Shown: positions 17,850-37,273 of the stretch, one piece after another | Numbering within the stretch: the stretch's first letter is position 1 | How the letters are laid out: every line of letters starts with the position of its first letter | Assembly: GCA_011391865.1 (NCBI GenBank) | Contig: JAABPV010000020.1 | Span: 1-40,816, forward strand | Direction: 5' to 3' | DNA length: 40,816 nt | Source of the DNA: Desulfobulbaceae bacterium | GTDB taxonomy: Bacteria > Desulfobacterota > Desulfobulbia > Desulfobulbales > Desulfobulbaceae | Position numbers and translations under genes: made by a program | Notes under the pieces: generated by a model | Databases searched by the model: none | The model's input: only the letters and a program-made list of their open reading frames with translations | Told to the model about the DNA's origin: nothing

Positions 17850-18314
17850 ATGATGGCTGCTCCGAAAAGAACAACGAAAGCGCAATCAGAAGAAGGGATT
17901 GCCCGGTTTCTCGCCGCGCTGGACACGCACACCAAGCTGCTGGCTTTCTTCTTCGGCCTGTGCTTTGTGGCGGCGGTGCTGGTGTTGGCGGTCTGGTTTC
18001 CGCAGCCGACAGCCTTTCAATACACGGTGTTCCGCATCGTGCTGGCCTTGGCTGCTGCCGGAGTTGCCGGGGTCATTCCCGGCATGATCCGCCTGAAAGC
18101 GCAGCCGGGAGCTGCCCTGCTGATTCATGCGGGCGGTGCGCTGGCGGTGTTTGTGATGGTATATCTGCTTGCGCCTGCGGCAGTGCCGCAAGAGGAAAGG
18201 CCAGCTAAGAAAAACGCTGCTCCCACGCAAGTTGTTCATCAGCTAATTCAAGGGAATAACAATACTAACATTAATTTAGAAAAAGGCAATGTGGAGGTAA
18301 AGCATGAAGAGTAA
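17850..18314 (+). CDS. Small polytopic membrane protein with NLEKGNV tail
   Basis: 154 residues, unrecognised. Three hydrophobic helices (about 29-50, 58-79, 88-110) are followed by an extramembrane tail ending QGNNNTNINLEKGNVEVKH. The tail motif recurs at the N-terminus of the next protein (SSAYNLEHGNVTVYN), suggesting a common binding element or origin. Start ATG 17850 follows AAAGGTGA. The stop overlaps the next gene by 11 bp, so the two form an operon behind the palindromic promoter. Confidence 0.75.
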   Translation: MMAAPKRTTKAQSEEGIARFLAALDTHTKLLAFFFGLCFVAAVLVLAVWFPQPTAFQYTVFRIVLALAAAGVAGVIPGMIRLKAQPGAALLIHAGGALAVFVMVYLLAPAAVPQEERPAKKNAAPTQVVHQLIQGNNNTNINLEKGNVEVKHEE

Positions 18315-19416
18315 AATCACAGCGTTGTCATTGACCGGCCTGTTATCTGTCTCTCACGCTTCCGCAGAACCTCCTGTGTCGCATCAGTCACTTGTTGGTG
18401 ATAAAAGTTCTGCTTACAATCTCGAACATGGAAATGTCACAGTCTACAACTGTAAAGATTGTTGCACTGATGAGAAAAAACGTTGCGATTCAATCGCAGA
18501 AAAATTGAAAGCTACAAGCGAGCAACTCCCAAAATCACTGTTAAAGAGAGCACAGCGGCTAATAGAGAAAAATCGCAATGATGATGCAAAGAAAGTGCTT
18601 GACAGGAGCGTCAAAAATCATAGCTCTTTTATTGAAGAAACCCTGTGGTTGCAAGGGGATTACGATGAAAAGAGAGGAAAAGGCAAGGAAGCTCTGATGT
18701 CTTATAAAAAAGCTGTTGTGTTGAATGAAGAAAAGAATCCAAAGTATCTGATGTCAGCAGGAAAAATGGCACGTGATTATGGCGCATACGAAGAGGCGGA
18801 AAAATGGCTGGAAAAGCTTTTGCAAATTAGATTAGCTGAAAAAAAGAACGATCTCAATCTTGCTGCGGCAAGGCGAGAATTGGCCGTTCTGTATGATGAT
18901 CAGGCTAAAGCTGAGAAGCTATACCAAGAAGCACTTGAAATATATGAAAAAGAATCTGGAGTAAATAGTAAATATTACGCGGCTGTTTTGCATGATTTGG
19001 CCGATTATTACCGCAGGAAAAACGATTACCTGAAAGCAGAACCGCTGTTTGAGCAATGCCTCAATATTATGGAGAAAACTCTTGGTAACAATGACCCTGA
19101 TATAGCTCATGTTCTTGCAAATTTTGCTCTCCTCCAAAAAGAAAATGGAAAAATTGAAGAAGCTGATCAACTATTCAGCCGCTCGCTTAGAATTTGCGAT
19201 GCGGCGAGTGTTCTTGGAACAGACTGTGATGACATTGGGATGATTAAAAATGACGTTGCTGAGTTTTATGAATCTCAAAAACGTTACAAAGAAGCAGAAC
19301 AGCGATATGAAGAAGCTCTTTTCATGTTGAAGGCGAAATTTCCTAATGGCCATCAGCAGATCAATCAGGTTCAGGTAAATTACGACAGGCTGAAACAGAA
19401 GATGGCGGAACAGTAG
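18304..19416 (+). CDS. Exported tetratricopeptide-repeat protein
   Basis: 370 residues with a signal peptide (about 1-21, ending SHASA) and then a short stretch containing NLEHGNVTVYN and a CKDCC cysteine cluster. From about residue 70 to the end it is a series of TPR units, e.g. YEEAEKWLEKLLQIRLAE, AEKLYQEALEIYEKESG, YLKAEPLFEQCLNIMEKTLG and YKEAEQRYEEALFML, of the Klc-like 42-residue type. Probably a periplasmic scaffold for protein-protein contacts. A good GGAGG lies before ATG 18304. Co-transcribed with the membrane protein upstream; AT-rich, so possibly acquired. Confidence 0.82.
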   Translation: MKSKITALSLTGLLSVSHASAEPPVSHQSLVGDKSSAYNLEHGNVTVYNCKDCCTDEKKRCDSIAEKLKATSEQLPKSLLKRAQRLIEKNRNDDAKKVLDRSVKNHSSFIEETLWLQGDYDEKRGKGKEALMSYKKAVVLNEEKNPKYLMSAGKMARDYGAYEEAEKWLEKLLQIRLAEKKNDLNLAAARRELAVLYDDQAKAEKLYQEALEIYEKESGVNSKYYAAVLHDLADYYRRKNDYLKAEPLFEQCLNIMEKTLGNNDPDIAHVLANFALLQKENGKIEEADQLFSRSLRICDAASVLGTDCDDIGMIKNDVAEFYESQKRYKEAEQRYEEALFMLKAKFPNGHQQINQVQVNYDRLKQKMAEQ

Positions 19417-21869: not shown

Positions 21870-24800
21870 ATGAGCAGAGCAGGCACAAAACCGAATCAGG
21901 GGGGTAATTATCAAGGATTCATCGCCCTGCACTGGATAATCCGCCTGATCAGCGATGATGCAATTGAATTCGTTCAAGCCGAATCCACCGGCCTGCCCGG
22001 CGTGGATGAAAAAATCACGGTTGATGATATTGTTGTCTGCTATAAGAATGGTCAGCGGCGGCATATTCAGGCCAAGAAGAACCAGCCAAAAAATCGTTGT
22101 TGGAATCTGACCGATTTGCAGGACGAGCTGCCAAAGATACTGGCCCAGCTTGAAATCTCCCCGCAAACATTAGTTGAACTCTGCTCCCAGACTCCTTTCG
22201 GAGACTTAAAAAGCCTTGTTGATGCTGGCAGAGAATATTCTGATTTTACCGCATTTAATAATCATGTCGAGAGCAAGAAGCTTCAGAACTTACTGAACCA
22301 GCTTGCCGAAAAATGGAACCGTTCCCAAAAAGATACCTTTGTTTTGCTGCGGAGAATAGAAATCGGCCCGCATCATTCCTTCGCAGACTGGCCTCGCATC
22401 AATCTTGAAGAATTAAAAAGGCTGGTTTCCCGTGCTGATACTGCCTTGAAAGTTCTTGAATCCTTTCTTAATAAGCATCAGTCAAAGCTGCTCGCACAAT
22501 CATTCACAATAAACCGTGAGGATGTGCTTGACCAGCTCCGCAAACACGGCTGTGTGCGGGCACCTCTGTATGAGGAATCAGAAATACTCCAGCAGTTCAG
22601 GAGAATATCAGTCATCGGGCGAAATGACTGGCAGCGCACGGTTGGAGGACGGAAAATCAACCGCCCGGAATTCGCTCAAGTTTTGGAGCAAGTGGAAGAA
22701 GGTGCTGCCACGGTGCTGGTGACAGACCGCCCCGGCAGCGGCAAAACTTGTCTGCTGCTTGATTTTGCTGATCATCTTGAAGCTGATGACCGCTTTGGCC
22801 TGCTCTTCATCAAAGGCGACCGCTTTACAACGAGCAGCAGCATTTCTGATTTGCCTGAAGATATTCCCGGACTTTGCGCCCGCTTGTCGGAAACACGCCG
22901 CGTTGTCGTCATCCTCGATTCATTAGACGTGCTGTCCATGAATCGTGAGCACGGCGCATTAGAGAAATTTCTGCGGTTGATTGATCAGCTCCAGCTCATG
23001 CCCGGCGTGACGGCAATAGCAGCCTGTCGTTCCTTTGATCTGAAATATGATACCCTGCTGCGGGACAGGAAATGGCAAAAAACGATTGCGCTTGCTAATT
23101 TCGATTATGATCAAGTCGTTGCTCCGCTGCTCAAGGACTGGAACGTTGCAGAACACGAGGTGGATGCGCCGCTTCGTGAACTGCTCCGGCTGCCGCAGAA
23201 CCTGCGGCTTTTTGAGACGGTAGCCCAGCGCGGCGGGCCGTACAATATCCGTTCGGTGCATGAGCTGCATGAAGCCTATCTTGACGAGGCGGTTCTGAAA
23301 AATCCGCTGCTGGGCGATGCGGCCATGCAGACGCTGCGCGATTTGGCGGACAAGCTGCTGCAGGAAAGGGAACAGTGGATTGCGCCCGCCTTGTTTCCTT
23401 TGACGGAAGATATTCGCCGCGCTCTTGTAAGCTGCGGTGTACTGCATCAGGATGAAAAAGGCAAAATCGGTTTTGGCCATCAAACGTTGTTGGATAATCT
23501 TGCCGCCAAGTCCGCCTTTGCACGTCAGCAAACGCTGGCAGATTTCATCAAATCGCATCCGCCTTTTCCATTCATCCGCCCTGCTGTCCGTTCTTTTGCC
23601 TTTCACCTCAGAACATATTCCGCAAAAAAGTTCAGGCAGCAGCTACGGTCTGTCTTCACAGACCAAGACGTGGCCTATCATTTCAAACGGCTTCTGGCGG
23701 AATCTTTGATCGAAATCATTCCTGAAGAGGATGACAAGCTGTTGATCAACCGCCTGATGCAGAATGAGCCTGAATTGTTCCGGCGTTTCTTCTGGCGGCT
23801 GAACAGCGCGGCGTGGTTTTCTTGGCTGACAGAGCATTGGCTGCCGAATCTCGGTTCCGTGCAGGAGGACAAGCAATGGTATGCCCTGTTTGCTGCCAAG
23901 CTGGAGCGGTGGCAGAACGCCTTCCCTGACGAAGTGCTCGCTCTTTGGCAGCGGGCCTTTGCGGAAGAATGGGATGAGAAGAGCAATCTTTCAGGAAGAC
24001 TCGTTTTCAGTCTTCGCAAATTTCGGCATTGGCAGGTTCAAGGTATTGATTTTCTGTTAGAGAAGCTCTTGACGGAATCTAATGATACGCATTCATTAGG
24101 CAAGACGATTAGCCAGTATGTTACGGCAACGGGCCAAGGCGATGATTTGCTCTGGCGATTCATCATAAAAGACCTGAGCAGCGCGGATGTGACGGAATTG
24201 GATATCGGCAAGAAACTGCACTGTGATGAGCACGATTTTCATCAGAATGATTTTTTTAAACAGCGGATGCTTGCTTCGGAATATCTGCTGGACTTGGTTC
24301 TCAGCGACCTGCAAAAATGGGCGGATGCTGGAATCAGTGATTATGACAGGAAGATGGATAGCCGACATTATTCTATCTTGCTTGAAAGCACAAGCTGGAG
24401 TCAAACGCATCATCAACTTAACTTTTACCGTGCTGATGATTTAACGATACTTATTCAGATTGTTGGACAGACACTTCAATATCATTCCAGAAAAAAAACA
24501 GCATGGTGGCAGGAAAACGAGCCGCAGCTCAGGCAATCTTGTGAAGCAGGAATGCTGTATCTGCTGATACTTGCTTATCGAGAAAATTTAGTAGCCAATG
24601 CAGCCGGGATCGCCGCCCTGCTTTCAGACAAGAACCTGCTGCGCTACGGACGGTTGGAACATGAATTGGGCGAATTGGCAGGTTCCTCCTTTCATCTGCT
24701 CAACGACTCAGATCAAGAGCTTTTTCAACGAGCTGTTCTCTGTCTGTATGATGATAAAGACTACAGTAACAAACAATGGGTGCAGCAAAAGAAATATGAT

Positions 24801-26420
24801 TATCTGGTCTGGGTTCCAGTTATCTTTCGCCTATCTGAAGCGCAGCATCTTGTGGATCAGCTTAGTCCGTCTATTGGCAGTCTTCTGCCCATGCCGCAAG
24901 TTTATTGTCGAGCAATAGATACGGGAGCAATTGTTCCTTTTAATGAATTGATATATTTAAGCAATGGCAGTCTTTACAGAATATTATCATACTATGATGC
25001 TCTTTCGACTTCCGCCAATGGCAACAGTGAGCACGATATCTATAGAACGGTGAGACGATGGGGCGCAATTGAGAGGGTACTTTCCGAAGCTGCAACTTAT
25101 GACCCGCTGCGCTATTTTTCTCTCCTGCCTGAATTAGAAGGCCAAGGATTGAGCGCAAGTTATGCTGTCAGCATTTTGCAAGGAATTTCTAATCATATGT
25201 GCTACCGGTTTGGTCGTCTGCAACCACCAAACGGCAAAGACTGGAAGCACATTGAACCGCCGCCGGACGGTTTTCTCCTCACTGAAATCCTGATCAATAC
25301 CGCTGAACGATTTGATCCCGTTTGGCAAGACGGTTATGCCATAAGCCGTATCCTTCAAGCCTGCTCCGAGGTGGTTGAAGACGCTGCTTCAGCAGAGCGT
25401 CTTGTTTTCCTCCTCTTCCGTCTGCGCAACCATCCTGACCCTGAAGAAAACAGAGAGGAGGGATTCTTTGATTCTATCAATCGCGTCCGGGGGATAGCGG
25501 CTGGTGCGGCAATGACCTTGTGCAACCGCCTTCTGGAAAAAGAGGTTGAGCTGCCGGAACTGCTCTTCCCGCTGCTGCGTCATTATGCGCTGGATCATGT
25601 CTTGTCCGTTCGCGCTGCTTTGATGAACGGTCTGCCCTTCCTGACCCACAAACACCATGACTGGGGCTGGCAGCTCTTTGATGATATTTTCCGGGATGCT
25701 CCGACGCTCCTCTGGCCCCTTGCAGAACGCCATCTCTATTATCAATATCGCGAGCATTTCGACAAAGTCGCGCCCTGCCTTGACCGCATTCGACAGGAAG
25801 CACCGGCTGAGGCTGGCGAGGCTTGGGGACGTATTGCAACTTTTGCATCTTTGGACGGGCATTTGCCGCAGGACAGCCTGTTTGCCCAGCTTGAACAGAC
25901 AAATATCGCGAAACAATGGGAAGTTGCGGCTGAAATTTTTGCCGCCAACATTGAACGGCGCAACGATGCCTGCATGAACGGGCTGCGCAGAATCCTTGAA
26001 CGGGAAGAAAACGAGGAAGAGACGTTGAGCGCAGTCTGCAATGCCTTTAATTTGGAGAAAAACGGCAAACTGCTGGATGCTAGTTTTGCTGTTCTGTTCA
26101 TCAGGAAGATGCGCGTTGACATCAATGGACATGCGCACTCTGATTTATTCGACTGGATTGCTTGGTTTGTGCAGAAGGATGCAGCGGCAGGAATCGAGGT
26201 CTGCGAATGTCTTGTGGAGAAACTGGCAGAAAGCGGCGCGGCAGTCAGTCAGTTATGGCACAGCGAATCATTGCTTTCTGCCTTAAAAAATATTCTCCGA
26301 GAAGCAGATGAAAGCGATGATGCAGACTTGATCAACCGGGCAGTGCGGCTGCAAGATCAGTTTCTGCGCATGGACATCGCTGGCATGGAGGAGTTCTTGG
26401 AGCAGGCCGCAAAGCTGTAA
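21870..26420 (+). CDS. Giant STAND-like NTPase with N-terminal PD-(D/E)XK-like nuclease domain (Avs-like)
   Basis: 1516 residues. N-terminal domain (about 10-110): GGNYQGFIALHWIIRLI helix, then ITVDDIVVCYKNGQ (Asp52/Asp53) and RHIQAKKN (Gln67-Lys69), the D...QxK layout of Cap4/DUF4297-type and Mrr-type nucleases. NTPase domain (about 250-480): Walker A DRPGSGKT (286-293), Walker B VVVILDSLD (345-353) and a sensor-like AACRSFD (about 387). From about 500 to the end: a 1000-residue helical region without an obvious short repeat, as in sensor arms of STAND proteins. This is the architecture of Avs antiviral proteins, which recognise phage proteins and activate an N-terminal effector. Assignment to a known Avs type is not possible by eye. 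AT-richer than icd and comF on either side; no partner gene adjacent. Confidence 0.8.
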   Translation: MSRAGTKPNQGGNYQGFIALHWIIRLISDDAIEFVQAESTGLPGVDEKITVDDIVVCYKNGQRRHIQAKKNQPKNRCWNLTDLQDELPKILAQLEISPQTLVELCSQTPFGDLKSLVDAGREYSDFTAFNNHVESKKLQNLLNQLAEKWNRSQKDTFVLLRRIEIGPHHSFADWPRINLEELKRLVSRADTALKVLESFLNKHQSKLLAQSFTINREDVLDQLRKHGCVRAPLYEESEILQQFRRISVIGRNDWQRTVGGRKINRPEFAQVLEQVEEGAATVLVTDRPGSGKTCLLLDFADHLEADDRFGLLFIKGDRFTTSSSISDLPEDIPGLCARLSETRRVVVILDSLDVLSMNREHGALEKFLRLIDQLQLMPGVTAIAACRSFDLKYDTLLRDRKWQKTIALANFDYDQVVAPLLKDWNVAEHEVDAPLRELLRLPQNLRLFETVAQRGGPYNIRSVHELHEAYLDEAVLKNPLLGDAAMQTLRDLADKLLQEREQWIAPALFPLTEDIRRALVSCGVLHQDEKGKIGFGHQTLLDNLAAKSAFARQQTLADFIKSHPPFPFIRPAVRSFAFHLRTYSAKKFRQQLRSVFTDQDVAYHFKRLLAESLIEIIPEEDDKLLINRLMQNEPELFRRFFWRLNSAAWFSWLTEHWLPNLGSVQEDKQWYALFAAKLERWQNAFPDEVLALWQRAFAEEWDEKSNLSGRLVFSLRKFRHWQVQGIDFLLEKLLTESNDTHSLGKTISQYVTATGQGDDLLWRFIIKDLSSADVTELDIGKKLHCDEHDFHQNDFFKQRMLASEYLLDLVLSDLQKWADAGISDYDRKMDSRHYSILLESTSWSQTHHQLNFYRADDLTILIQIVGQTLQYHSRKKTAWWQENEPQLRQSCEAGMLYLLILAYRENLVANAAGIAALLSDKNLLRYGRLEHELGELAGSSFHLLNDSDQELFQRAVLCLYDDKDYSNKQWVQQKKYDYLVWVPVIFRLSEAQHLVDQLSPSIGSLLPMPQVYCRAIDTGAIVPFNELIYLSNGSLYRILSYYDALSTSANGNSEHDIYRTVRRWGAIERVLSEAATYDPLRYFSLLPELEGQGLSASYAVSILQGISNHMCYRFGRLQPPNGKDWKHIEPPPDGFLLTEILINTAERFDPVWQDGYAISRILQACSEVVEDAASAERLVFLLFRLRNHPDPEENREEGFFDSINRVRGIAAGAAMTLCNRLLEKEVELPELLFPLLRHYALDHVLSVRAALMNGLPFLTHKHHDWGWQLFDDIFRDAPTLLWPLAERHLYYQYREHFDKVAPCLDRIRQEAPAEAGEAWGRIATFASLDGHLPQDSLFAQLEQTNIAKQWEVAAEIFAANIERRNDACMNGLRRILEREENEEETLSAVCNAFNLEKNGKLLDASFAVLFIRKMRVDINGHAHSDLFDWIAWFVQKDAAAGIEVCECLVEKLAESGAAVSQLWHSESLLSALKNILREADESDDADLINRAVRLQDQFLRMDIAGMEEFLEQAAKL

Positions 26421-28374: not shown

Positions 28375-29451
28375 ATGAAACTGCTGATCGCTGACGATGA
28401 ACTCTCGACCCGGATACTGCTCCGACATTGCGCCGCCCGCTGGGGCTATGAGGTGGTCGAGGCTGCGGACGGGCTGGAGGCCATGACCATGCTGCGCGGC
28501 CCGGAGCCGCCCCGCATCGCAGTGCTGGACTGGATGATGCCCGGCTTGGATGGCGTGGAAATCTGCTCGCGGCTTAATCCACCGGGCGGCGGGCCGCTGA
28601 CATACATCATTCTGCTCACCGGCAAAAGCGAAAAAGAAGATGTCGTCCACGCCTTGGATCAGGGAGCGCATGACTTTCTCAGCAAGCCGGTGCACATCGG
28701 CGAGCTGCACAGCCGGATCACCGTGGGACGGCGGCTGGTGGAGGCCAACGACCGCCTGATCGAATTAGACAAGCTCAAAGACCGCTTTCTGCGCATCGCC
28801 GCCCATGATTTGCGCAATCCGCTCGGCTACATCATCACCATGACCGAGATGCTCTTGGATAGCAATTTCTTTGAGATGCGGAACAATCTTGACAGCCATC
28901 TTTCGGCTATTCATGAAACCGCCTCGGTGATGCAAGGCTTGATCAACGATCTGCTCGACCTCTCGGCGGTGCGCGAAGGCACCTTCAAGATCAGTCGGGA
29001 GGCCGCCTCAATCAGCGACATTCTCCGGCAGGCGGCGCGGATACAGGGGCAGGCGGCGGCCCGCAGGCAAATCCGCATCTTCGAGCAGCTGGCCGATATT
29101 CCGCCCTTCAGCTTTGATCCGGCCCGCATCCGCCAAGCTGTGGACAACCTCCTCGGCAACGCGGTCAAATTTTCCTCGCCCGGTTCTGCTGTTACTCTTA
29201 GTGTGGAGGAGGAGGAAGGCCGGGTCAGGGTTTCCGTGGCTGATCAAGGGCCGGGCCTGAGTGCCGAGGAGCTGGCTCGGCTTGCCGCCGGAGAAAATTC
29301 TCAGCTACCGGGCGGCAAAGAGGGCGGTCTCGGCCTGACCGTGGTCAGAAAAATCATCGAACTGCATCAGGGCGAGCTGTGGGCAGAAAACCGGGCCGGA
29401 GGCGGCTGCGTCGTCAGCTTCACTCTGCCTGCCGGGCCTGCGCCCGCCTGA
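28375..29451 (+). CDS. Receiver-histidine kinase hybrid (cytosolic)
   Basis: 358 residues, no membrane segment. N-terminal receiver domain: ADDE at 6-9, phosphoacceptor Asp52 in AVLDWMMPG, Lys104 in FLSKP. It is followed by a HisKA dimerisation helix with His144 in RIAAHDLRNPLG and an HATPase domain: N-box VDNLLGNAVKF (Asn262), DQGPGL and GGLGLTVVRKII. REC placed before the kinase suggests that the kinase output is switched by phosphorylation from another kinase. No paired regulator is adjacent. 102 bp separate it from the Hsp70 gene; co-regulation is possible. Confidence 0.92.
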   Translation: MKLLIADDELSTRILLRHCAARWGYEVVEAADGLEAMTMLRGPEPPRIAVLDWMMPGLDGVEICSRLNPPGGGPLTYIILLTGKSEKEDVVHALDQGAHDFLSKPVHIGELHSRITVGRRLVEANDRLIELDKLKDRFLRIAAHDLRNPLGYIITMTEMLLDSNFFEMRNNLDSHLSAIHETASVMQGLINDLLDLSAVREGTFKISREAASISDILRQAARIQGQAAARRQIRIFEQLADIPPFSFDPARIRQAVDNLLGNAVKFSSPGSAVTLSVEEEEGRVRVSVADQGPGLSAEELARLAAGENSQLPGGKEGGLGLTVVRKIIELHQGELWAENRAGGGCVVSFTLPAGPAPA

Positions 29452-29553: not shown

Positions 29554-31866
29554 ATGAAGAAATCCATCGGCATTGATTTGGGCACCACCAATTCGGCCGC
29601 CGCGATCAAAAAAGCGCGGGTTGAAGTGCTGCAAAACGCGGAAGGCGAGTTCATCACTCCGTCTTGCGTCACTGTGCGCAAACGGCTGATGCGGAAGCCG
29701 GAGTTCATCGTTGGCCGCCATGCCTTGGAGTGGCTGCGGCAGGAGCCGGAAAACACCGTCACAGCGGTCAAACGGCTGATCGGTCGCAATTATCACGACC
29801 CGGAAGTGCAGGAGCTGATCAAGAACGGCAGGTTCCGCTGCCCGCTTTCGCCGCATTCCAGCGGCACCAAAAACAGCTTGGCGATCACCGCCGGAGGCCG
29901 CGAGTTCAGCCCAGAGGAAATCTCCGCCCATATTTTGGCCAAAATCAAGGCTGATGCCGAACGCGCTCTCGGCGGCGAGGTGGACACGGCGGTGATCACT
30001 GTGCCTGCCTATTTCAACGACAAGCAGAAACACGCCACCCGCACCGCCGCCGCGCTGGCCGGGTTGAAGGTCAGCCGCCTGCTGCCGGAGCCGACTGCGG
30101 CGGCCATCTCCTTCGGCGTGGATCAGCTCTCCGGCGACGAAGGAAAAACCGTTCTGGTCTTCGACTTCGGCGGCGGCACCCTTGACCTCTCGCTCCTGGC
30201 AATCAGCGGCGGGCAGATCATCGAAATAGCCAAGGGCGGCGATATGTGGCTCGGCGGCGAGGATATCGACAACCTGCTTGTCGTCCACGCCCTGCGCGAG
30301 ACAGCGGCGCGGGAGGACATGGACGATCTCCGCCTCCGCGCCCTGATCGGGCGACTGGAGTCGGGTCAGCGCAACCGCCTGTTGGCCGAGCTGAAGACAG
30401 CGGCGGAAAAGACGAAAATCGCTCTCAGCGACAGCCCGGAAGCCTGTTTGTCCGTGCTGGGGCTGCTCACGGACGAGGACGGCGATCCGCTGAACATTGA
30501 GGCGGAATGCAGCCGCGAGCAGCTTGAGGAGCTGATGACCCCGACGCTGGCGGCACTGCTTAAATTAGTGCGTGGCCTGCTGACTGAGTCTCATTTCAGC
30601 AAAGAGCTGGTTGATCTTGTTCTCTTGGTCGGCGGCAGCTCGCGCATTCCCTGCGTCATCAGCGCGCTGCGGCAGGAGTTCGGTCCGGAGAAAGTGCTGG
30701 CGCATGAGCGGCCCATGCTGGCTGTGGCGGAAGGCGCGGCCATCCTCAGTTGCCGTCTGGCGGACACGCAGGAATGCCCGTCCTGCGGCAAAGAGGCCGG
30801 GCAGCATGATGCCGTCTGCCCGCATTGCCAGTTCGACCTTGAAAATCATGCTGTCCGGAACGGGCTGGTGGACATCGTCCATGCGGTGGCCCATGACTAT
30901 TTCATCCGCTTGGAGAACGACCAGCGTTTTCTGCTGATCAAAAAAAACACGCCGCTGCCCTGCTCCAGCACTGAGGTTTTTCAGCTAGTGGATGCCGAGC
31001 AGGAGCTGGTGCATATCCGCTTCTATAACGTGGTCAACGAGCGCGAGGAGCGCATCGGCGACCTCTGGCTGGGCATTGACCGCGACAGCGGCGGGCCGGA
31101 GCCGGAGGAGCCGCCGCGTGTCGCCGTGACCTTGGACATTGACGAGAGCAATTTGGTTTCGGTGCGGGCGGCCTTGGCCGGCCAGCCGGAGGTGAAGGTG
31201 GAGGGCACTCTCTCGCGCGGCAAGGCGGACGAGCGGCTTTTCCTCCTTTTGGAGCAGACAATCAGCGAGGCCGACCGCAAGGGCTGCTCCGCCTACACCG
31301 TGGCCGATCTGCTCTGCCGGGCCAGAGGGATCATCCGCTCCATCCGCAAAGTGGTTGATCCCCGCACTGGCGCGGCGGACGAGGCCCTCTGCCGTCAAGT
31401 GGAGGAAAAAATCCGCAAGGCGGCGGCAATCGCCGAGGCAGAGGAAGCCCCGCTGACCAGAATTTATTACGCGGAAAGCATGCTGAACGATTACAGCAGC
31501 TTGATCGCGCCCGCTTTGCAGGAAAAAATAATCAGCAAAATAGAGCGGCTGCGGAAAATCGACGAGGACGGCGGCTATGAGGAGACCATGCAGGCCATGG
31601 ATGAGCTGGCCGCCGCGCTGGAGGATCCAGGCTTGAATTTAGCGCATGACCTGACCCAGATTGAGAACGCCTGCGAAATCTGCCATCGGACAGAGCCGGA
31701 CAAGGCCACGCGCTTCATGCGGGCGGCGGCGGCGGTGCTGGAGGCCGCTGAGACGGGAGAGGAGCCGGATATTGCGCAGTTAGAGGCGGTCATGCCGGAA
31801 GTTGAGGACGTGCTGGATCAGCACGCCCGCAGCGCGCAGAAAATTCATCGGGACATCCGCAGATGA
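29554..31866 (+). CDS. Hsp70-family ATPase with inserted zinc ribbon
   Basis: 770 residues. N-terminal Hsp70 ATPase domain: IGIDLGTTNSAAA (phosphate 1), VITVPAYFNDKQ, LLPEPTAAAISFG, VFDFGGGTLDLSLL (phosphate 2) and LLVGGSSRIP (adenosine). Immediately after it, near residue 408, is a zinc ribbon CPSCGKEAGQHDAVCPHC that normal DnaK lacks. Next comes a diverged substrate-binding-like beta region (about 440-560) and a long helical C-terminal part. The interdomain linker DLLLLDVT of DnaK is not recognisable. It is therefore a specialised Hsp70, not the housekeeping DnaK. Its stop overlaps the next start (ATGA), and the six genes following are close-packed, including J-like and GrpE-like genes, so it probably works with dedicated co-factors. 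Confidence 0.88.
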   Translation: MKKSIGIDLGTTNSAAAIKKARVEVLQNAEGEFITPSCVTVRKRLMRKPEFIVGRHALEWLRQEPENTVTAVKRLIGRNYHDPEVQELIKNGRFRCPLSPHSSGTKNSLAITAGGREFSPEEISAHILAKIKADAERALGGEVDTAVITVPAYFNDKQKHATRTAAALAGLKVSRLLPEPTAAAISFGVDQLSGDEGKTVLVFDFGGGTLDLSLLAISGGQIIEIAKGGDMWLGGEDIDNLLVVHALRETAAREDMDDLRLRALIGRLESGQRNRLLAELKTAAEKTKIALSDSPEACLSVLGLLTDEDGDPLNIEAECSREQLEELMTPTLAALLKLVRGLLTESHFSKELVDLVLLVGGSSRIPCVISALRQEFGPEKVLAHERPMLAVAEGAAILSCRLADTQECPSCGKEAGQHDAVCPHCQFDLENHAVRNGLVDIVHAVAHDYFIRLENDQRFLLIKKNTPLPCSSTEVFQLVDAEQELVHIRFYNVVNEREERIGDLWLGIDRDSGGPEPEEPPRVAVTLDIDESNLVSVRAALAGQPEVKVEGTLSRGKADERLFLLLEQTISEADRKGCSAYTVADLLCRARGIIRSIRKVVDPRTGAADEALCRQVEEKIRKAAAIAEAEEAPLTRIYYAESMLNDYSSLIAPALQEKIISKIERLRKIDEDGGYEETMQAMDELAAALEDPGLNLAHDLTQIENACEICHRTEPDKATRFMRAAAAVLEAAETGEEPDIAQLEAVMPEVEDVLDQHARSAQKIHRDIRR

Positions 31867-33146
31867 GCCAGACGCGCAACTGTCCGGTCTGCGGGCGGCC
31901 CGGCCTGCCGCCTGACTGCGGCAGCTGTCCGCAGTGCGACGCGGATTTGACCTGCTTTCAAGCTCTTGACTCGCTTGCCAGCCCGGCGGCGGCCACAGTC
32001 GCCGCGCCGCCGAAAAAACGCCGTTTTCCGTGGGCGGCTGCCGGTGTGCTGGCACTGCTTGCCCTGCTGCTTCTGGCCGGGCTGGCGGCGAGCATGAAAA
32101 GCCGCCTTTCCGAGCTTGACCGCCAGCTTGCCGAGCTGAAAGCGGCGGAAGCACGGACGGCGACTGAGAGCAAGCCAACGCGGCAGCCCGTTCCCGCCAA
32201 GCCGCCGGAAAGCAAAATTCAGATTGATGCCCGCGTCCGCATCGTTGATGAGCACGCGGCGGCGGGCAGTGCAGCTGTCGAAGAGTCGAAACAGCCTGTC
32301 GTTGCGGCCAAAGAAATGAAGAAGATTGCCGCCGTCCAGCCGGGCGAGGAGCGGAAGCCAGCATCGGACGCAGCGCAAGCCGCCGCTGCTCAGCCTGTCG
32401 CCGGGCCGGTTGAGCAGGCAGATGCAAAGTCGAAGGTGGTGCGGGAGATAATCCGGCAGCCGGACAAGGAGAAGGATGAGCCGCTTGGCGCGCCAATGCC
32501 GCCGCCGCCTGCGGCAAAAACGGCGGAGCAGAGCGCGGCGGCGGCTTCAGAAGCTTCAGAAAAATCAAAGGAAGAGCAGTCTCTGTCAGTCGTTGCAGAT
32601 CGCCCTGCCAGCGAGGAAGGCCGCGACCTTGCTGAAATTGCTGATCCGCCTGCAACGCCGCCGGTGCTGCTCAAGCCGGGCTTCAGAAAGCACCGTGTAA
32701 GGCCCGTCGTTCTCAGAGAAGAAATTGCGCAGCATCCTGCCGTTGCGGCAGAACATGTGGGGCTAACCGCAGCGGCGCAGCAGCGCGGCGGCTCCTTTTT
32801 TTATTTAATCAAGGACGGGGAGACGGTCTGGGACATTGCCGAGCGGTTCTACGGCGACCGCAAATATTACCCAGTAGTGATGGAGCAGAATCCGCACATT
32901 TTCCTCGGCTTCATCCGCAAAAACAGCACGGTGCGGCTCTTCACCGACCGCCGCGAGGCCGCCGCCCTCTACCAGCGTAAGATTGAGCAGCGCGAGGGCC
33001 TGCTGCTCTGGAGCTACGAAGTGCGGCCCGGTGAAACATGGCGCACTATTTACGCCCGCTTTTTCCTGCCCCGCTACTCTGGCATGATTTTCTACGGAAA
33101 CCAAGATGTTGCGCCGGGAAAAACAATGCTGGTCATTTTGCGCTGA
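31863..33146 (+). CDS. Zinc ribbon-TM-LysM protein
   Basis: 427 residues. Zinc ribbon at 7-25 (CPVCGRP ... CPQC) resembles that of the preceding Hsp70. One TM helix at about 57-75 (WAAAGVLALLALLLLAGLAA). A 220-residue Ala/Pro/Lys/Glu-rich low-complexity spacer follows, then a LysM-like domain (FYLIKDGETVWDIAERFYGD ... VVMEQNPHI) and a second one (YEVRPGETWRTIYARFF). The layout places the zinc ribbon in the cytosol and LysM at the cell wall. It may link the Hsp70 machine to the envelope; that is inference. Start and stop both overlap neighbours (ATGA and TGATG). Confidence 0.82.
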   Translation: MSQTRNCPVCGRPGLPPDCGSCPQCDADLTCFQALDSLASPAAATVAAPPKKRRFPWAAAGVLALLALLLLAGLAASMKSRLSELDRQLAELKAAEARTATESKPTRQPVPAKPPESKIQIDARVRIVDEHAAAGSAAVEESKQPVVAAKEMKKIAAVQPGEERKPASDAAQAAAAQPVAGPVEQADAKSKVVREIIRQPDKEKDEPLGAPMPPPPAAKTAEQSAAAASEASEKSKEEQSLSVVADRPASEEGRDLAEIADPPATPPVLLKPGFRKHRVRPVVLREEIAQHPAVAAEHVGLTAAAQQRGGSFFYLIKDGETVWDIAERFYGDRKYYPVVMEQNPHIFLGFIRKNSTVRLFTDRREAAALYQRKIEQREGLLLWSYEVRPGETWRTIYARFFLPRYSGMIFYGNQDVAPGKTMLVILR

Positions 33147-34690
33147 TGAATCTGGCCGGAATCTGCGCAGGTCTGCTGCGGCTCTTCGGCGGGCGCGTTC
33201 AGACGGCGGCCCGGCTTGAAGCCGAGGCGGCAGAGCCGCCCGACCCGCTTCAAGTCGGGCTTGATCTGGCTGCCACAGGAGACCCTGCTGGCTGCCTGCG
33301 GCTCTGGCTTGCCGCTGAATATCTTGATATTGATGAAGAAAAATTGCGCATCCAGTTCCTGCTGCTGGATGCGCTGCGCCGCCGCCTGAACGCCGGGCCG
33401 CTGGAGGAGGAAGAAGGTGTTTCCGCGCTGATCAAGGAATTCAGCCTCTCTGGCCTGCCGGGCGGCCCGGAGCTGCTGGCGCGCTGCCGCAGCATCCGGC
33501 TGGCCCGGCTCTGGCGTGACGGGCTGCTGGAGGACATCGCGGTCATGGCGGATCAGACTGACTGGCGGCAGCCCGCTGCGCTGGCCGTGCAGGCGAAGGC
33601 ACTGTGCAGGCTGCTGGCAGCGGAAGAGCCGATTGCACCGTCTCTGGCAAGACTGTTCATCAACGCATGGCTGACGCTGCTTTTTCACCCGGAAGCCGGG
33701 CCGCAGAATGAGCGGCTGCGGCAGACCCTGCTGGACTTCAGCGCGGAGCGGCTGCGGCGGCAGGCGGCTCGGATGAGTGGAGGGGCAGGATTGCTCCGTC
33801 AATGGGAAGAATTGATCAGCATTTTAGAATCACTGCGAAACCTGACAAAAGAACCGATCTGTGCCCCGGCCTTAGCTTTCCAAGCCGGGCTGGCGGAGCG
33901 GCACTGCGCCCTGATCAAGAGCGGACGGGCGGCTTTCGCGGATGAAACGGCATGGCTGGCTGCTGGCGCGGCGTATTCAGCTGCCGGAGAGTCCCTGCTT
34001 CTGCTCCGCGAGGGCCGCGAGGAAGATGCGCTGGCGGAGCTGCCGGATGATGAGGGCGATTCCTTCGCCGCTTGGGGCGCGGCTGAAGTCCGGGCGGCCT
34101 GCGGCTTGCGCTTCCTTTGTGACAGACGGCTGCGCGAGGCGGAGCAGGTGCTGACCGGCGGCCCGGCGCATTGGACGGCGGAGCTGGAAGAGACGCTGCT
34201 GGACGTGCTGCATGACGAGCTGGACGGCGCGGAGCTGGCGGCCAGCCTCGGTATCCTTGCCCTGCTGCCGCCGGGAAGCGGGGCCGCAGACGCGTTCTGC
34301 GCGGCTCTGGCAGCTCAGGCCGCACGGCTGCGGGCTGACGGAGCGTCTCCCCGCCTGCTGGCCGCAGTGACCGCCAAGGCCGCCGCGCTCCGGCCCGACG
34401 ACGAAGCCGCCCGGAAGCTGCATGAAGAGGCTTTGCTGAACCTTGAGCTGGCGCGGATCAACGAGGCGTTCGCCTGCGACTGCTTCGCCGAGGCTGCCCG
34501 CGTTGCCGCCGCCAGCCGTTTCCCGCAGGCACGGGAGCATTTCTTTGCGGAGGCCGGACAGGCTGCGGCCCGCATCGCCTGCGGCGGCTGCGCTGATCAG
34601 GAAGCTGCGGCCTATGTGCTGGAAGAACTGCAGGCGGCCTGCTCCGCTGTGGATGCTGAGTGCTGCTCGGTCGGGAAGGCGCGGCTATGA
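33146..34690 (+). CDS. Helical protein of unknown function in the Hsp70 cluster
   Basis: 514 residues from ATG 33146, which overlaps the LysM gene stop (TGATG). Almost entirely Ala/Leu/Glu/Arg-rich helices, like a degenerate TPR/solenoid (e.g. DPLQVGLDLAATGDPAGCLR, ALRPDDEAARKLHEEALLNL). No signal peptide; a slightly hydrophobic N-terminus (AGICAGLLRLFGG) could touch a membrane. No family recognised. Its position between the LysM and J-like genes suggests a scaffold of the same complex. High GC, like its neighbours, so not a recent import. Confidence 0.7.
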   Translation: MNLAGICAGLLRLFGGRVQTAARLEAEAAEPPDPLQVGLDLAATGDPAGCLRLWLAAEYLDIDEEKLRIQFLLLDALRRRLNAGPLEEEEGVSALIKEFSLSGLPGGPELLARCRSIRLARLWRDGLLEDIAVMADQTDWRQPAALAVQAKALCRLLAAEEPIAPSLARLFINAWLTLLFHPEAGPQNERLRQTLLDFSAERLRRQAARMSGGAGLLRQWEELISILESLRNLTKEPICAPALAFQAGLAERHCALIKSGRAAFADETAWLAAGAAYSAAGESLLLLREGREEDALAELPDDEGDSFAAWGAAEVRAACGLRFLCDRRLREAEQVLTGGPAHWTAELEETLLDVLHDELDGAELAASLGILALLPPGSGAADAFCAALAAQAARLRADGASPRLLAAVTAKAAALRPDDEAARKLHEEALLNLELARINEAFACDCFAEAARVAAASRFPQAREHFFAEAGQAAARIACGGCADQEAAAYVLEELQAACSAVDAECCSVGKARL

Positions 34691-34899
34691 ATCCGTTCAA
34701 AATTCTTGATGTCGGCCAAGATGCTGAACCAGCGGAGGTCATGCGTGCGGCGGCGCAGGCCCTGCGGGAACGGCGGCATTCCGCCCGCGAAATTGCGGCG
34801 GCCCGGCAGATGCTGATGGAGCCTGAGCAGCGGGCCGTGCTCGTCTTCCTGCATTTCACGGACACCGCTCCGCTGCTCAGGCCGTCGGATGAATCATAA
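34687..34899 (+). CDS. Small J-like protein lacking HPD
   Basis: 70 residues from ATG 34687, overlapping the previous stop (ATGA). It begins NPFKILDVGQDAEPAEVMRA, aligned with helix I and the start of helix II of J domains, and ends with AARQMLMEPEQRAVLVFLHF, aligned with helix III (the usual EVLSDPEKRxxYD part). The HPD tripeptide between the helices, needed to stimulate Hsp70 ATPase, is missing; RERRHSARE stands there. I call it J-like from this pattern and from the Hsp70/GrpE context. It could act as a non-stimulating adaptor. Confidence 0.6.
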   Translation: MNPFKILDVGQDAEPAEVMRAAAQALRERRHSAREIAAARQMLMEPEQRAVLVFLHFTDTAPLLRPSDES

Positions 34900-34944
34900 T
34901 ATCATGAAATTGTTGAGCTTTGTCTGGCTCATTGAAAGAGGGCG

Positions 34945-35439
34945 ATGAGGAAGGAAATTGACGCTGGCAGCCCAAGCGGTCTGCTCCGGGAAAAGCTGGT
35001 TGGATTTCAGCGCGAAATCGCCGGGCTGAAGCGGCAGCTCAAGGAGCGCGAGGAGGAGGAGCTGCGCCGTGAGCGGGAGCTTTATGCGGATATTTTTGAT
35101 ATTGTTGATATTTTCGACAGTATCGAGCTAGGCACGCGGCGCAAGCCGGAACCGCTGGACAAAGGCGGCCAGCGGCTGCTGGAGAGCATGAAGGCTGTGC
35201 GGCGTAGGCTCATCCGCCTGCTCGGCTCCCGCCGGATCGAGCCGCTCGACTTCCCCGACCGCAAGGCGCAGCCCGGCCAGTGCGCGGTGGCGGAGGCCCG
35301 ACCTGCTCCTGGACGGGAGAACGAGGAGATTCTGGCTGTGCTCAAACGCGGCTGGGCGGACACGGCGCAGGGCGTTGTCCTGCGCAAGGCGGAAGTGGTG
35401 ACGGTGCGGAATGAGGAGCGGGCAGAGACCGCGGGGTGA
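34945..35439 (+). CDS. GrpE-like nucleotide exchange factor
   Basis: 164 residues. An N-terminal coiled coil (about 10-60: GFQREIAGLKRQLKEREEEE) is followed by LYADIFDIVDIFDSIE, matching the GrpE helix with the DxxD/N dimer region, and by a beta-wing-like C-terminal end: VLKRGWADTAQGVVLRKAEV, where GrpE reads 'rGY...gRvlRpA.V'. Canonical GrpE length is 170-200. It is presumably the exchange factor of the atypical Hsp70 at 29554. ATG 34945 follows GAAAGAGGG. The 3' end overlaps the RecD-like gene by 29 bp. Confidence 0.75.
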   Translation: MRKEIDAGSPSGLLREKLVGFQREIAGLKRQLKEREEEELRRERELYADIFDIVDIFDSIELGTRRKPEPLDKGGQRLLESMKAVRRRLIRLLGSRRIEPLDFPDRKAQPGQCAVAEARPAPGRENEEILAVLKRGWADTAQGVVLRKAEVVTVRNEERAETAG

Positions 35440-37273
35440 GGCCGGGCGGAGCGTCCGCGCCGCGCTGGAGCAGGCCGCCCGGAACGGGGAGCTGCGCCCG
35501 CTTGACCTGCATCTTGGTCTGTTCCTTGAGCGGCAAGCGGGCAGGGCAGGGCGGAAAAACCCTGAGCTGCTGCTGGCGGCGGCCTTGGCCAGTTCGGCGG
35601 CAGGCGGCGGCCATGTCTGCTGGCCGCTGGCGGAGCGCGAATCCCTGCCGTTCCCGCTGCCGCTTGGCCTACTCCCAGAGCCTGAGCACTGGCGGCGCAG
35701 CCTCTTGGTCGGCGGCGCGGTCGGCCAGCCCGGCGACATTGCGCCGCTGATCCTCGACCGGCACAACCGGATCTACCTAAGCCGCTTCCATCAGGCTGAA
35801 GAGCGGATCGCCAGCGGGCTGCTCTGCCGGGCCAAGGTAGACACGCCCGCCGACGCGGAAGCGGCTTGGCCTCTTTTGCAGCAGCTTTTTCGCGAACAGC
35901 ACCTTGACAGGCTCGGCGGTGGCCCGGACTGGCAGCAGGCGGCGGCGGCAATGGCTCTGATCAAACCGCTGCTGGTGATTTCCGGCGGGCCGGGTACGGG
36001 CAAGACTTACACAGCCGCCCGCATCATCGCCCTTCTTCAGAGCCTGCACAATGGCGGCAGGCCGCTGCGCGTCGCCTTAGCCGCACCCACCGGCAAGGCT
36101 GCGGCCCGTTTGGATGAATCCATCCGCGCCGCCCGACAGAGCCTGCCCGAAGGTTTGGGCCGCGCTCTGCCGGAACATGCCCAGACCCTGCACCGTCTGC
36201 TCGGCGCACGGCCCGGCAGCGAGGCGTTCCGCTATAACCGCGACAATCCGCTGGCCGTTGACCTGCTGCTGGTGGATGAAGCCTCGATGATCGATCTGTT
36301 GCTGACAGACGCTCTGCTGGAAGCCCTGCCGCCTAATGCCCGGCTGATTCTGCTCGGCGACCGCAGCCAGCTCGCTTCCGTTGAGGCGGGTAGCCTCTTC
36401 GCCGACCTCTGCGGCAGCGGCGAACCGGCGTGGTCAGAGCCGCTCCGCGCCCGGCTTGGCCAGCTCACCGGCCAAGAGCTGCCGCCTGCGCCTGAACCCG
36501 GCGGCCTGCTGGCGGACTCCTGCGTCCTGCTCCGCACAGGCCACCGTTTTCAGGGGGAAAGCGGTATCGGCAGCCTAGCGGCGGCGGTGAACAGCGGCTC
36601 AGTCGAGGCGGCAGAGGAAGCGCTGGCCGCAGGGCTGCCGGATTTGGAATTCGCCGAATGCGCAGGCCGCGAGCGCGAGGCTTGGCTGCGGACGCAGCTG
36701 CTGCGCGGCTTCCGGGGCATCAGCGAAGCGGCTTCGTTGGAGGCGGCCTTTGCGGCGATGGAACAGTTTCGCCTCCTCTGCGCTGTTCACAAGGGGCCGA
36801 ACGGCACCGAAGGCATCAACAGTCTTGCCGCCGCCGTGCTGCGGCAGGCCGGGCTGATCAGCAGCCGGGAGACGGAATGGCATCAGGGCAGGCCGCTGAT
36901 CATCCTCCACAATCAGTATGACCTCCAGCTCTTCAACGGCGACACAGGCCTGCTTTGGCTTGACCGGGACGGGCGGCTGAAAGCCTGGTTCCGCCGGGCG
37001 GACGGCAGGCTGCATCCGGTCTCGCCTTCGCTGCTGCCGGAGCATGAGACCGCCTACGCCGTCACTGTCCACAAGGCCCAAGGCTCGGAGTTCGAGCAGG
37101 TGCTGCTGCTCCTGCCGGAGGAGGAGAGCCGCGTCCTCAGCCGCGAGCTGCTCTACACCGGTATCACCCGCGCCCGCCGCAGGCTGATCCTCTGCGCCGA
37201 CCGCAGGATGCTGGCCGCCGCCGTGCGCTTGCGGACCAAGAGGCATTCCGGGCTGGCGGAGAAGCTGCTGTGA
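35411..37273 (+). CDS. recD: RecD-family helicase (exodeoxyribonuclease V alpha-like)
   Basis: 620 residues, SF1B helicase. Walker A VISGGPGTGKTYTAARI near residue 190, motif Ia APTGKAAARL, motif II LLLVDEASMIDL, motif III LILLGDRSQLASVEAG, motif V/VI TVHKAQGSEFEQV and LLYTGITRARRRL. The N-terminal 150 residues fit the RecD N-terminal domain that contacts RecB/RecC. recB and recC are not in the window, so either they lie elsewhere or this works alone (RecD2 is longer, about 720+). The start overlaps the GrpE-like gene by 29 bp, so it is at least transcriptionally tied to the chaperone-like cluster. Confidence 0.9.
   Translation: MRSGQRPRGEAGRSVRAALEQAARNGELRPLDLHLGLFLERQAGRAGRKNPELLLAAALASSAAGGGHVCWPLAERESLPFPLPLGLLPEPEHWRRSLLVGGAVGQPGDIAPLILDRHNRIYLSRFHQAEERIASGLLCRAKVDTPADAEAAWPLLQQLFREQHLDRLGGGPDWQQAAAAMALIKPLLVISGGPGTGKTYTAARIIALLQSLHNGGRPLRVALAAPTGKAAARLDESIRAARQSLPEGLGRALPEHAQTLHRLLGARPGSEAFRYNRDNPLAVDLLLVDEASMIDLLLTDALLEALPPNARLILLGDRSQLASVEAGSLFADLCGSGEPAWSEPLRARLGQLTGQELPPAPEPGGLLADSCVLLRTGHRFQGESGIGSLAAAVNSGSVEAAEEALAAGLPDLEFAECAGREREAWLRTQLLRGFRGISEAASLEAAFAAMEQFRLLCAVHKGPNGTEGINSLAAAVLRQAGLISSRETEWHQGRPLIILHNQYDLQLFNGDTGLLWLDRDGRLKAWFRRADGRLHPVSPSLLPEHETAYAVTVHKAQGSEFEQVLLLLPEEESRVLSRELLYTGITRARRRLILCADRRMLAAAVRLRTKRHSGLAEKLL

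Follow-up and report, generated by a model that had tools for sequence, protein, structure and literature searches.

A conserved five-gene cassette of cable bacteria and other lineages encoding an atypical Hsp70 with GrpE-like, HPD-less J-like and putative membrane-anchor partners

At positions 29554-37273 of contig JAABPV010000020.1 of a Desulfobulbaceae bacterium, six open reading frames (ORFs) on the plus strand encode a non-canonical Hsp70, a membrane protein with a zinc ribbon and LysM-like stretches, a helical solenoid, a J-like protein, a GrpE-like protein and a RecD-type helicase. The first five constitute a conserved unit, referred to below as the cassette. The window, that is, the whole stretch of DNA analysed, is the entire contig (C20, 40,816 bases) of a 2.8 Mb genome that is 95% complete. 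Its named close relatives are Candidatus Electronema aureum and other Electronema, followed by Candidatus Electrothrix, and therefore the host is a cable bacterium, Candidatus Electronema. The five genes and their principal features, predicted from alignments, hydropathy scans of relatives, Pfam searches, AlphaFold2 (AF2) models and Foldseek comparisons, are as follows.

29554..31866, plus strand: non-canonical Hsp70, 770 aa (Pfam HSP70, E=1.5e-100)
30775..30828, plus strand: Cys4 ribbon of the Hsp70 (CPSC...CPHC, residues 408-425) at the boundary of the ATPase domain and the linker (alignment)
31863..33146, plus strand: ribbon/transmembrane (TM)/LysM-like protein, 427 aa, a predicted N-in/C-out inner-membrane anchor (orthologues in alignment)
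31881..31937, plus strand: N-terminal Cys4 ribbon (CPVC...CPQCDADL) of the membrane protein (Cys columns invariant in alignment)
32031..32093, plus strand: single TM helix of the membrane protein, residues ~57-77, with KKRR ahead of it (hydropathy scan of relatives; window sequence)
32796..33143, plus strand: C-terminal conserved region of the membrane protein with one or two LysM-like stretches, predicted periplasmic (alignment)
33146..34690, plus strand: all-helical TPR-like solenoid, ~514 aa (AF2 model)
34687..34899, plus strand: HPD-less J-like protein, 70 aa (AF2, Foldseek)
34945..35439, plus strand: GrpE-like nucleotide exchange factor, 164 aa (Pfam GrpE, 26.2 bits, cut-off 25.8)

Four of the five core genes are connected by short overlaps. 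The start codon of the membrane protein (ATG at 31863) lies within the end of the Hsp70 gene, whose stop codon ends at 31866 as read from the sequence; the membrane protein and solenoid genes overlap at TGATG, and the solenoid and J-like genes at ATGA (34687/34690). The J-like and GrpE-like genes are separated by 45 nucleotides. The likeliest start of the solenoid is at 33146, the ORF that begins at 33038 having its first 36 codons within the gene of the membrane protein. An earlier reading of this DNA, made from its letters without database searches (the sequence-only reading), had placed six close-packed genes here, and all of them were confirmed in position and strand, with junctions that are mostly overlaps.

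Conservation of the cassette was examined using tblastn in seven related genomes from three genera, in which the order of the five genes is identical in every case where the contig extends far enough and the unit is unbroken, and in a scan of named genomes that used the Hsp70 as the sole query and yielded 63 loci. With profiles built from close relatives, the remaining cassette members were located next to the Hsp70 at almost all of the 63 loci. The order Hsp70, ribbon protein, (solenoid), J-like and GrpE-like is intact on one strand at 30 of the 31 named loci with at least 6 kb of sequence downstream. The lone exception is Electronema UBA5173 (G002), where the cassette is divided between two contigs carrying the Hsp70-ribbon half (C52:2792-6408) and the solenoid-GrpE half (C11:14049-16344); both halves are therefore retained. 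The solenoid profile was unmatched at 13 of the 30 ordered loci, namely the Bacteroidota-type members and one cyanobacterium, and in the inspected loci of this kind the slot is occupied by a TPR or other large helical protein, with Pfam TPR matches in the slot protein of L103 and L095. Since the gene order is kept across phyla, a chance arrangement is ruled out, and the conserved synteny that the sequence-only reading had proposed to look for in related genomes is present.

The named loci span the Desulfobacterota, the Bacteroidota and one cyanobacterium, along with metagenome-assembled genomes (MAGs) labelled as other phyla; the Spirochaetales, Elusimicrobia, Schekmanbacteria, Victivallales and Nitrosomonas members are MAG contigs assigned by label only. 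Members from sources other than MAGs include Desulfonema magnum (a complete genome), Desulfobacter latus, Telluribacter and Flavihumibacter. Pieces of the cassette occur in all 13 cable-bacterium genomes tested, alongside an ordinary dnaK. Strong matches were found in 16 of the 258 genomes of the order, in all eight Electrothrix genomes and in four of the five Electronema genomes. In the fifth (69% complete), the solenoid and GrpE-like genes begin 515 bases into a contig, so that the contig edge has probably cost it the Hsp70 gene. When the phylum was sampled evenly, only two of 395 genomes, that of the window among them, contained the cassette.

The Hsp70 consists of a full ATPase domain (residues ~1-400), the Cys4 zinc ribbon, an altered linker, a substrate-binding domain and a long helical C-terminus. 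A pattern search found the ribbon at 45 of the 63 loci: most Desulfobacterota-type members have it, as do some of the Bacteroidota type, but the cyanobacterium and several members of the Bacteroidota do not; it is thus not a defining part of the machine. A tree of ATPase domains was inferred for 59 cassette Hsp70s and 32 others, the latter made up of Escherichia coli DnaK together with DnaK and further Hsp70 paralogues from the same order. The cassette Hsp70s form a clade of their own, cleanly split from the 32 (support 0.999) and outside both DnaK and the other Hsp70 paralogues of the order. All 59 retain the catalytic residues K70, E171, T199 and D201, and the cassette Hsp70 is predicted on this basis to be ATPase-competent. 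At the position of Asn170, which is a DnaJ-contact residue of DnaK, all 59 carry Pro, Ala or Ser, whereas 31 of the 32 others carry Asn; similarly, a motif search found a VLLLDV-type linker in none of the 59 and in 25 of the 32. Residue numbers follow the E. coli DnaK sequence, and the local DnaKs of the same order show the identical contrast. The Hsp70 reading frame is interrupted towards its 3' end in Electrothrix aarhusensis (L079) and Electrothrix marina (L059), and so is that of the solenoid in L079, which could be draft-assembly error or genuine decay.

The J-like protein has an AF2 model with a pLDDT of 91.6, and its top Foldseek matches are J domains (probability 1.00, TM-score ~0.6, E of 0.03 or worse). 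In the window its Pfam DnaJ match falls below threshold, although 29 of the 45 relatives give a DnaJ match with E<=0.05, the best at 5.7e-6. None of the 45 J-like proteins carries the HPD motif, which is present in all four local DnaJ-type controls. With HPD, Asn170 and the VLLLDV linker all lost, the classical J-Hsp70 contact is, to judge from the sequences, altered on both sides together throughout the family. The GrpE-like protein scores just above the Pfam cut-off in the window; all 37 of its relatives match Pfam GrpE, and comparison with canonical GrpE by hhalign gave E=6e-8. The solenoid model contains helices only (pLDDT 88.6), and its best Foldseek matches are helical-repeat proteins, weak and alike in class only. 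In an Oscillatoriales MAG (L095:14485-15954) the J-like domain lies at the start of a protein of 489 aa whose end shows a weak SPOR-like match.

In the membrane protein, the N-terminal Cys4 ribbon and one TM helix are found in all 54 relatives, and no signal peptide precedes the ribbon, an arrangement consistent with the ribbon lying in the cytoplasm and LysM in the periplasm. LysM matches Pfam at E=1.1e-8 in L103 and 3.8e-7 in L095. The window protein has a sub-threshold match (E=0.019) over the first stretch only, the second having been judged by eye. The sequence-only reading had described this protein as carrying a ribbon and two LysM-like domains; the ribbon, the TM helix and a LysM domain, clear in the relatives, hold good, and the second LysM remains a judgement by eye. 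The Cys4 ribbon that it saw after the Hsp70 ATPase domain, the helical solenoid, and the J-like and GrpE-like genes are all borne out, the last two by matches in profile or structure searches. The missing HPD and the matching change in the Hsp70 interface had no place in that account.

We place high confidence in the anatomy and conservation of the cassette and in the altered J-Hsp70 interface, all of which are well supported. As for function, the likeliest working model is that the cassette encodes a dedicated Hsp70 machine that is tethered at the inner membrane and cell wall, works with a pseudo-J partner and is separate from the housekeeping DnaK/DnaJ/GrpE set, a reading to which we give about an even chance; such a machine would act on clients presented by the solenoid. 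It is favoured because the gene order is kept, both halves are retained even where the cassette is divided, the Hsp70s form a separate clade, and separate canonical grpE-dnaK and DnaJ-type genes exist; and because ATPase residues are kept with HPD, Asn170 and linker lost, in company with a J fold, a GrpE, a solenoid, a ribbon joined to a TM helix, and the LysM domains of L103 and L095. The ribbon of the membrane protein would hold the Hsp70 at the membrane from the cytoplasmic side, perhaps ribbon to ribbon, while its C-terminal LysM would grip or sense peptidoglycan and the solenoid would bind and present a particular client. The J-like domain would dock onto the Hsp70 and serve there as scaffold or brake, comparable to Pam16 in the mitochondrial import motor, and not as the classical HPD-driven ATPase trigger; the GrpE-like protein would reset the Hsp70, and the input may be phosphorylation signalling that differs by lineage.

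Several observations count against this reading. The cassette encodes no HPD-bearing J protein, and a general DnaJ might trigger ATP hydrolysis by its Hsp70. LysM is sub-threshold in the window itself, the ribbon proteins of L080, L083 and L087 align over their N-terminal part only and may lack LysM, and the predicted topology depends on the position of one TM helix and the KKRR stretch. The dedicated, atypical Hsp70 machine proposed by the sequence-only reading is distinct from housekeeping grpE-dnaK, with real synteny and real J and GrpE relationships. Its envelope link is partly upheld: a membrane- and wall-facing anchor agrees with the TM helix after the ribbon throughout the relatives and with LysM in several, and remodelling is a fair inference from topology only.

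Housekeeping genes lie elsewhere in the same genome, with grpE-dnaK on contig C60 and DnaJ-type proteins on C25, C75 and other contigs, in agreement with the expectation that dnaK-grpE-dnaJ would not resemble the cassette and that a canonical dnaK would be found apart from it. On C60, a few kb from dnaK, a 99-aa piece (L036:426-725) matches the C-terminal part of canonical DnaK almost exactly and is a partial duplication or assembly remnant. The cassette shares with canonical DnaK-DnaJ-GrpE an Hsp70 with full ATPase residues, a J-fold protein and a GrpE-family exchange factor, and in one Desulfobulbaceae MAG (G007, contig C293; L043:3982-9235) it divergently adjoins a canonical grpE-dnaK pair. 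A duplicated general-purpose DnaK system on ordinary proteostasis duty could account for these likenesses. It is nevertheless very improbable, since HPD, Asn170 and the linker motif are lost family-wide, the Hsp70s stand in a separate clade, and the cassette adds a ribbon between the ATPase domain and the linker as well as TM/LysM and solenoid partners. A case of specialisation is the MxDnaK2-GrpE operon of Myxococcus, in which a specialised second Hsp70 shares a two-gene operon with its own GrpE; the available part of that account mentions no ribbon/LysM, solenoid or pseudo-J gene for the operon (PMC11019930).

The mitochondrial import motor comprises mtHsp70, the GrpE homologue Mge1, the HPD-less J-like protein Pam16, and Tim44. 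By analogy, the cassette might encode a translocation or assembly motor at the inner membrane that moves or assembles envelope proteins, its ATPase-competent Hsp70, GrpE homologue, HPD-less J-like protein and membrane-tethered partner matching the parts of the mitochondrial system. We regard this as unlikely: neither a Pam18-type HPD partner nor a channel is encoded in the cassette, the tether is a ribbon/LysM protein, and no secretion gene recurs among the flank families listed.

The main rival is a role in conflict or stress signalling, owing to the kinase, vWA and phosphatase genes upstream of some Bacteroidota cassettes and the defence genes nearby, both outside the view of the sequence-only reading. 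Here the tethered Hsp70 machine would sense phage infection or envelope damage, and a TerY-P-like triad would gate the assembly or release of an effector, possibly a very large TPR protein. At the Bacteroidota-type loci L107, L108 and L110 the genes upstream on the same strand include those for a Ser/Thr kinase (STK), a vWA protein and a PP2C phosphatase, and vWA-PP2C genes lie near the cassette in the Desulfobacterales locus L061; the triad occurs at these loci only, in L061 partly, and is absent among the scanned neighbours in the window. The gene of an STK-AAA protein is directly downstream of the cassette in L099, L101 and L111. ZorA- and ZorB-like genes directly follow a Bacteroidota cassette (L107:14220-16380; PADLOC ZorA2, E=4e-143), and the Bacteroidota-type flanks include type IIG restriction and phage-integrase genes. 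The sporadic spread across phyla points the same way. Against such a role, PADLOC defence models gave nothing better than E=0.036 for ten core proteins; the Desulfobacterota-type flanks are mostly housekeeping genes and, among the flank families listed, do not appear as defence islands; cable bacteria carry the cassette almost without exception, which is not typical of a defence island; and no phage- or plasmid-borne cassette was found, the plasmid matches being ordinary dnaK-like genes. A conflict role is possible but rather doubtful.

Published parallels lend this rival some weight. As far as the available parts of the report go, the GAP1-N2 GTPase systems of actinobacteria and firmicutes place Hsp70 and GrpE in one neighbourhood with FNIII proteins fused to DnaJ or TPR, a separate theme includes kinase-PP2C-vWA, and some systems are membrane-linked (Kaur et al. 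2020, PMC7159879). The cassette shares the Hsp70, the GrpE and the DnaJ- or TPR-bearing partner but differs in phyla and in lacking a DO-GTPase, GAP1 and FNIII protein, and those parts make no mention of a LysM/ribbon anchor or an HPD-less J protein (PMC7159879). DO-GTPase and GAP1 genes were found neither among the window proteins at 21.9-37.3 kb nor among the flank families listed. The CoCoNuTs, McrBC-type systems, likewise unite Hsp70 homologues with TerY-P triads of vWA, PP2C and kinase, but according to the portions available their Hsp70-like proteins have degenerate Walker A-like motifs and are likely RNA-binding, whereas the cassette Hsp70 has intact ATPase residues and no McrBC or nuclease gene accompanies it (PMC11090510). 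The five-gene cassette appears in neither description, to the extent that these were available (PMC7159879, PMC11090510). A literature search, with most subscription journals outside its reach, found no published Hsp70-ribbon-LysM cassette and no Hsp70 cassette of cable bacteria.

Returning to the tethered Hsp70 machine, it may tentatively be extended to a cross-phylum class that works without the HPD/linker mechanism, in which the pseudo-J protein and the wall or membrane tether would couple ATP cycling to envelope state and kinase signalling and, in some lineages, act as a switch for defence or a programmed response. Textbook Hsp70 function needs an HPD-bearing J domain that works via the interdomain linker. 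Since the cassette Hsp70s appear ATPase-competent and have their own GrpE and J-fold protein, yet lack HPD, Asn170 and the linker, the family is a natural system for asking how an Hsp70 can be driven or held back when the classical trigger is missing. A hitherto unrecognised connection of chaperones in the cytoplasm with the cell wall and with Ser/Thr-kinase signalling may also come to light through it.

Two genes adjoin the cassette in the window.

28375..29451, plus strand: response regulator-histidine kinase upstream of the Hsp70 (domain matches)
35411..37273, plus strand: RecD-type helicase, a passenger outside the machine (Pfam)

The RecD gene overlaps the GrpE-like gene by 29 nucleotides. 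In the seven related genomes searched with tblastn it was absent from the cassette locus, and in two Electronema relatives (G001 and G002) it lies on other contigs; it was thus rejected as a member of the machine. The six-gene unit of the sequence-only reading therefore reduces to its five-gene core, and its caution that RecD may be a passenger was well placed, no relative examined having RecD linked to the unit. The response regulator-histidine kinase adjoins the Hsp70 in L040, L041 and L042 but not in Electrothrix or in G007; kept in the genus Electronema only, it is a possible regulator of the cassette. Further upstream, positions 21870-26420 encode a 1516-aa protein with weak matches to AAA/nSTAND/NACHT-like NTPases, and positions 18304-19416 a tandem TPR_12 protein. 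Relatives of the latter lie inside a 1347-aa TPR protein (L039:1232-5275) that sits ~2 kb upstream of the cassette in an Electrothrix genome (G035).

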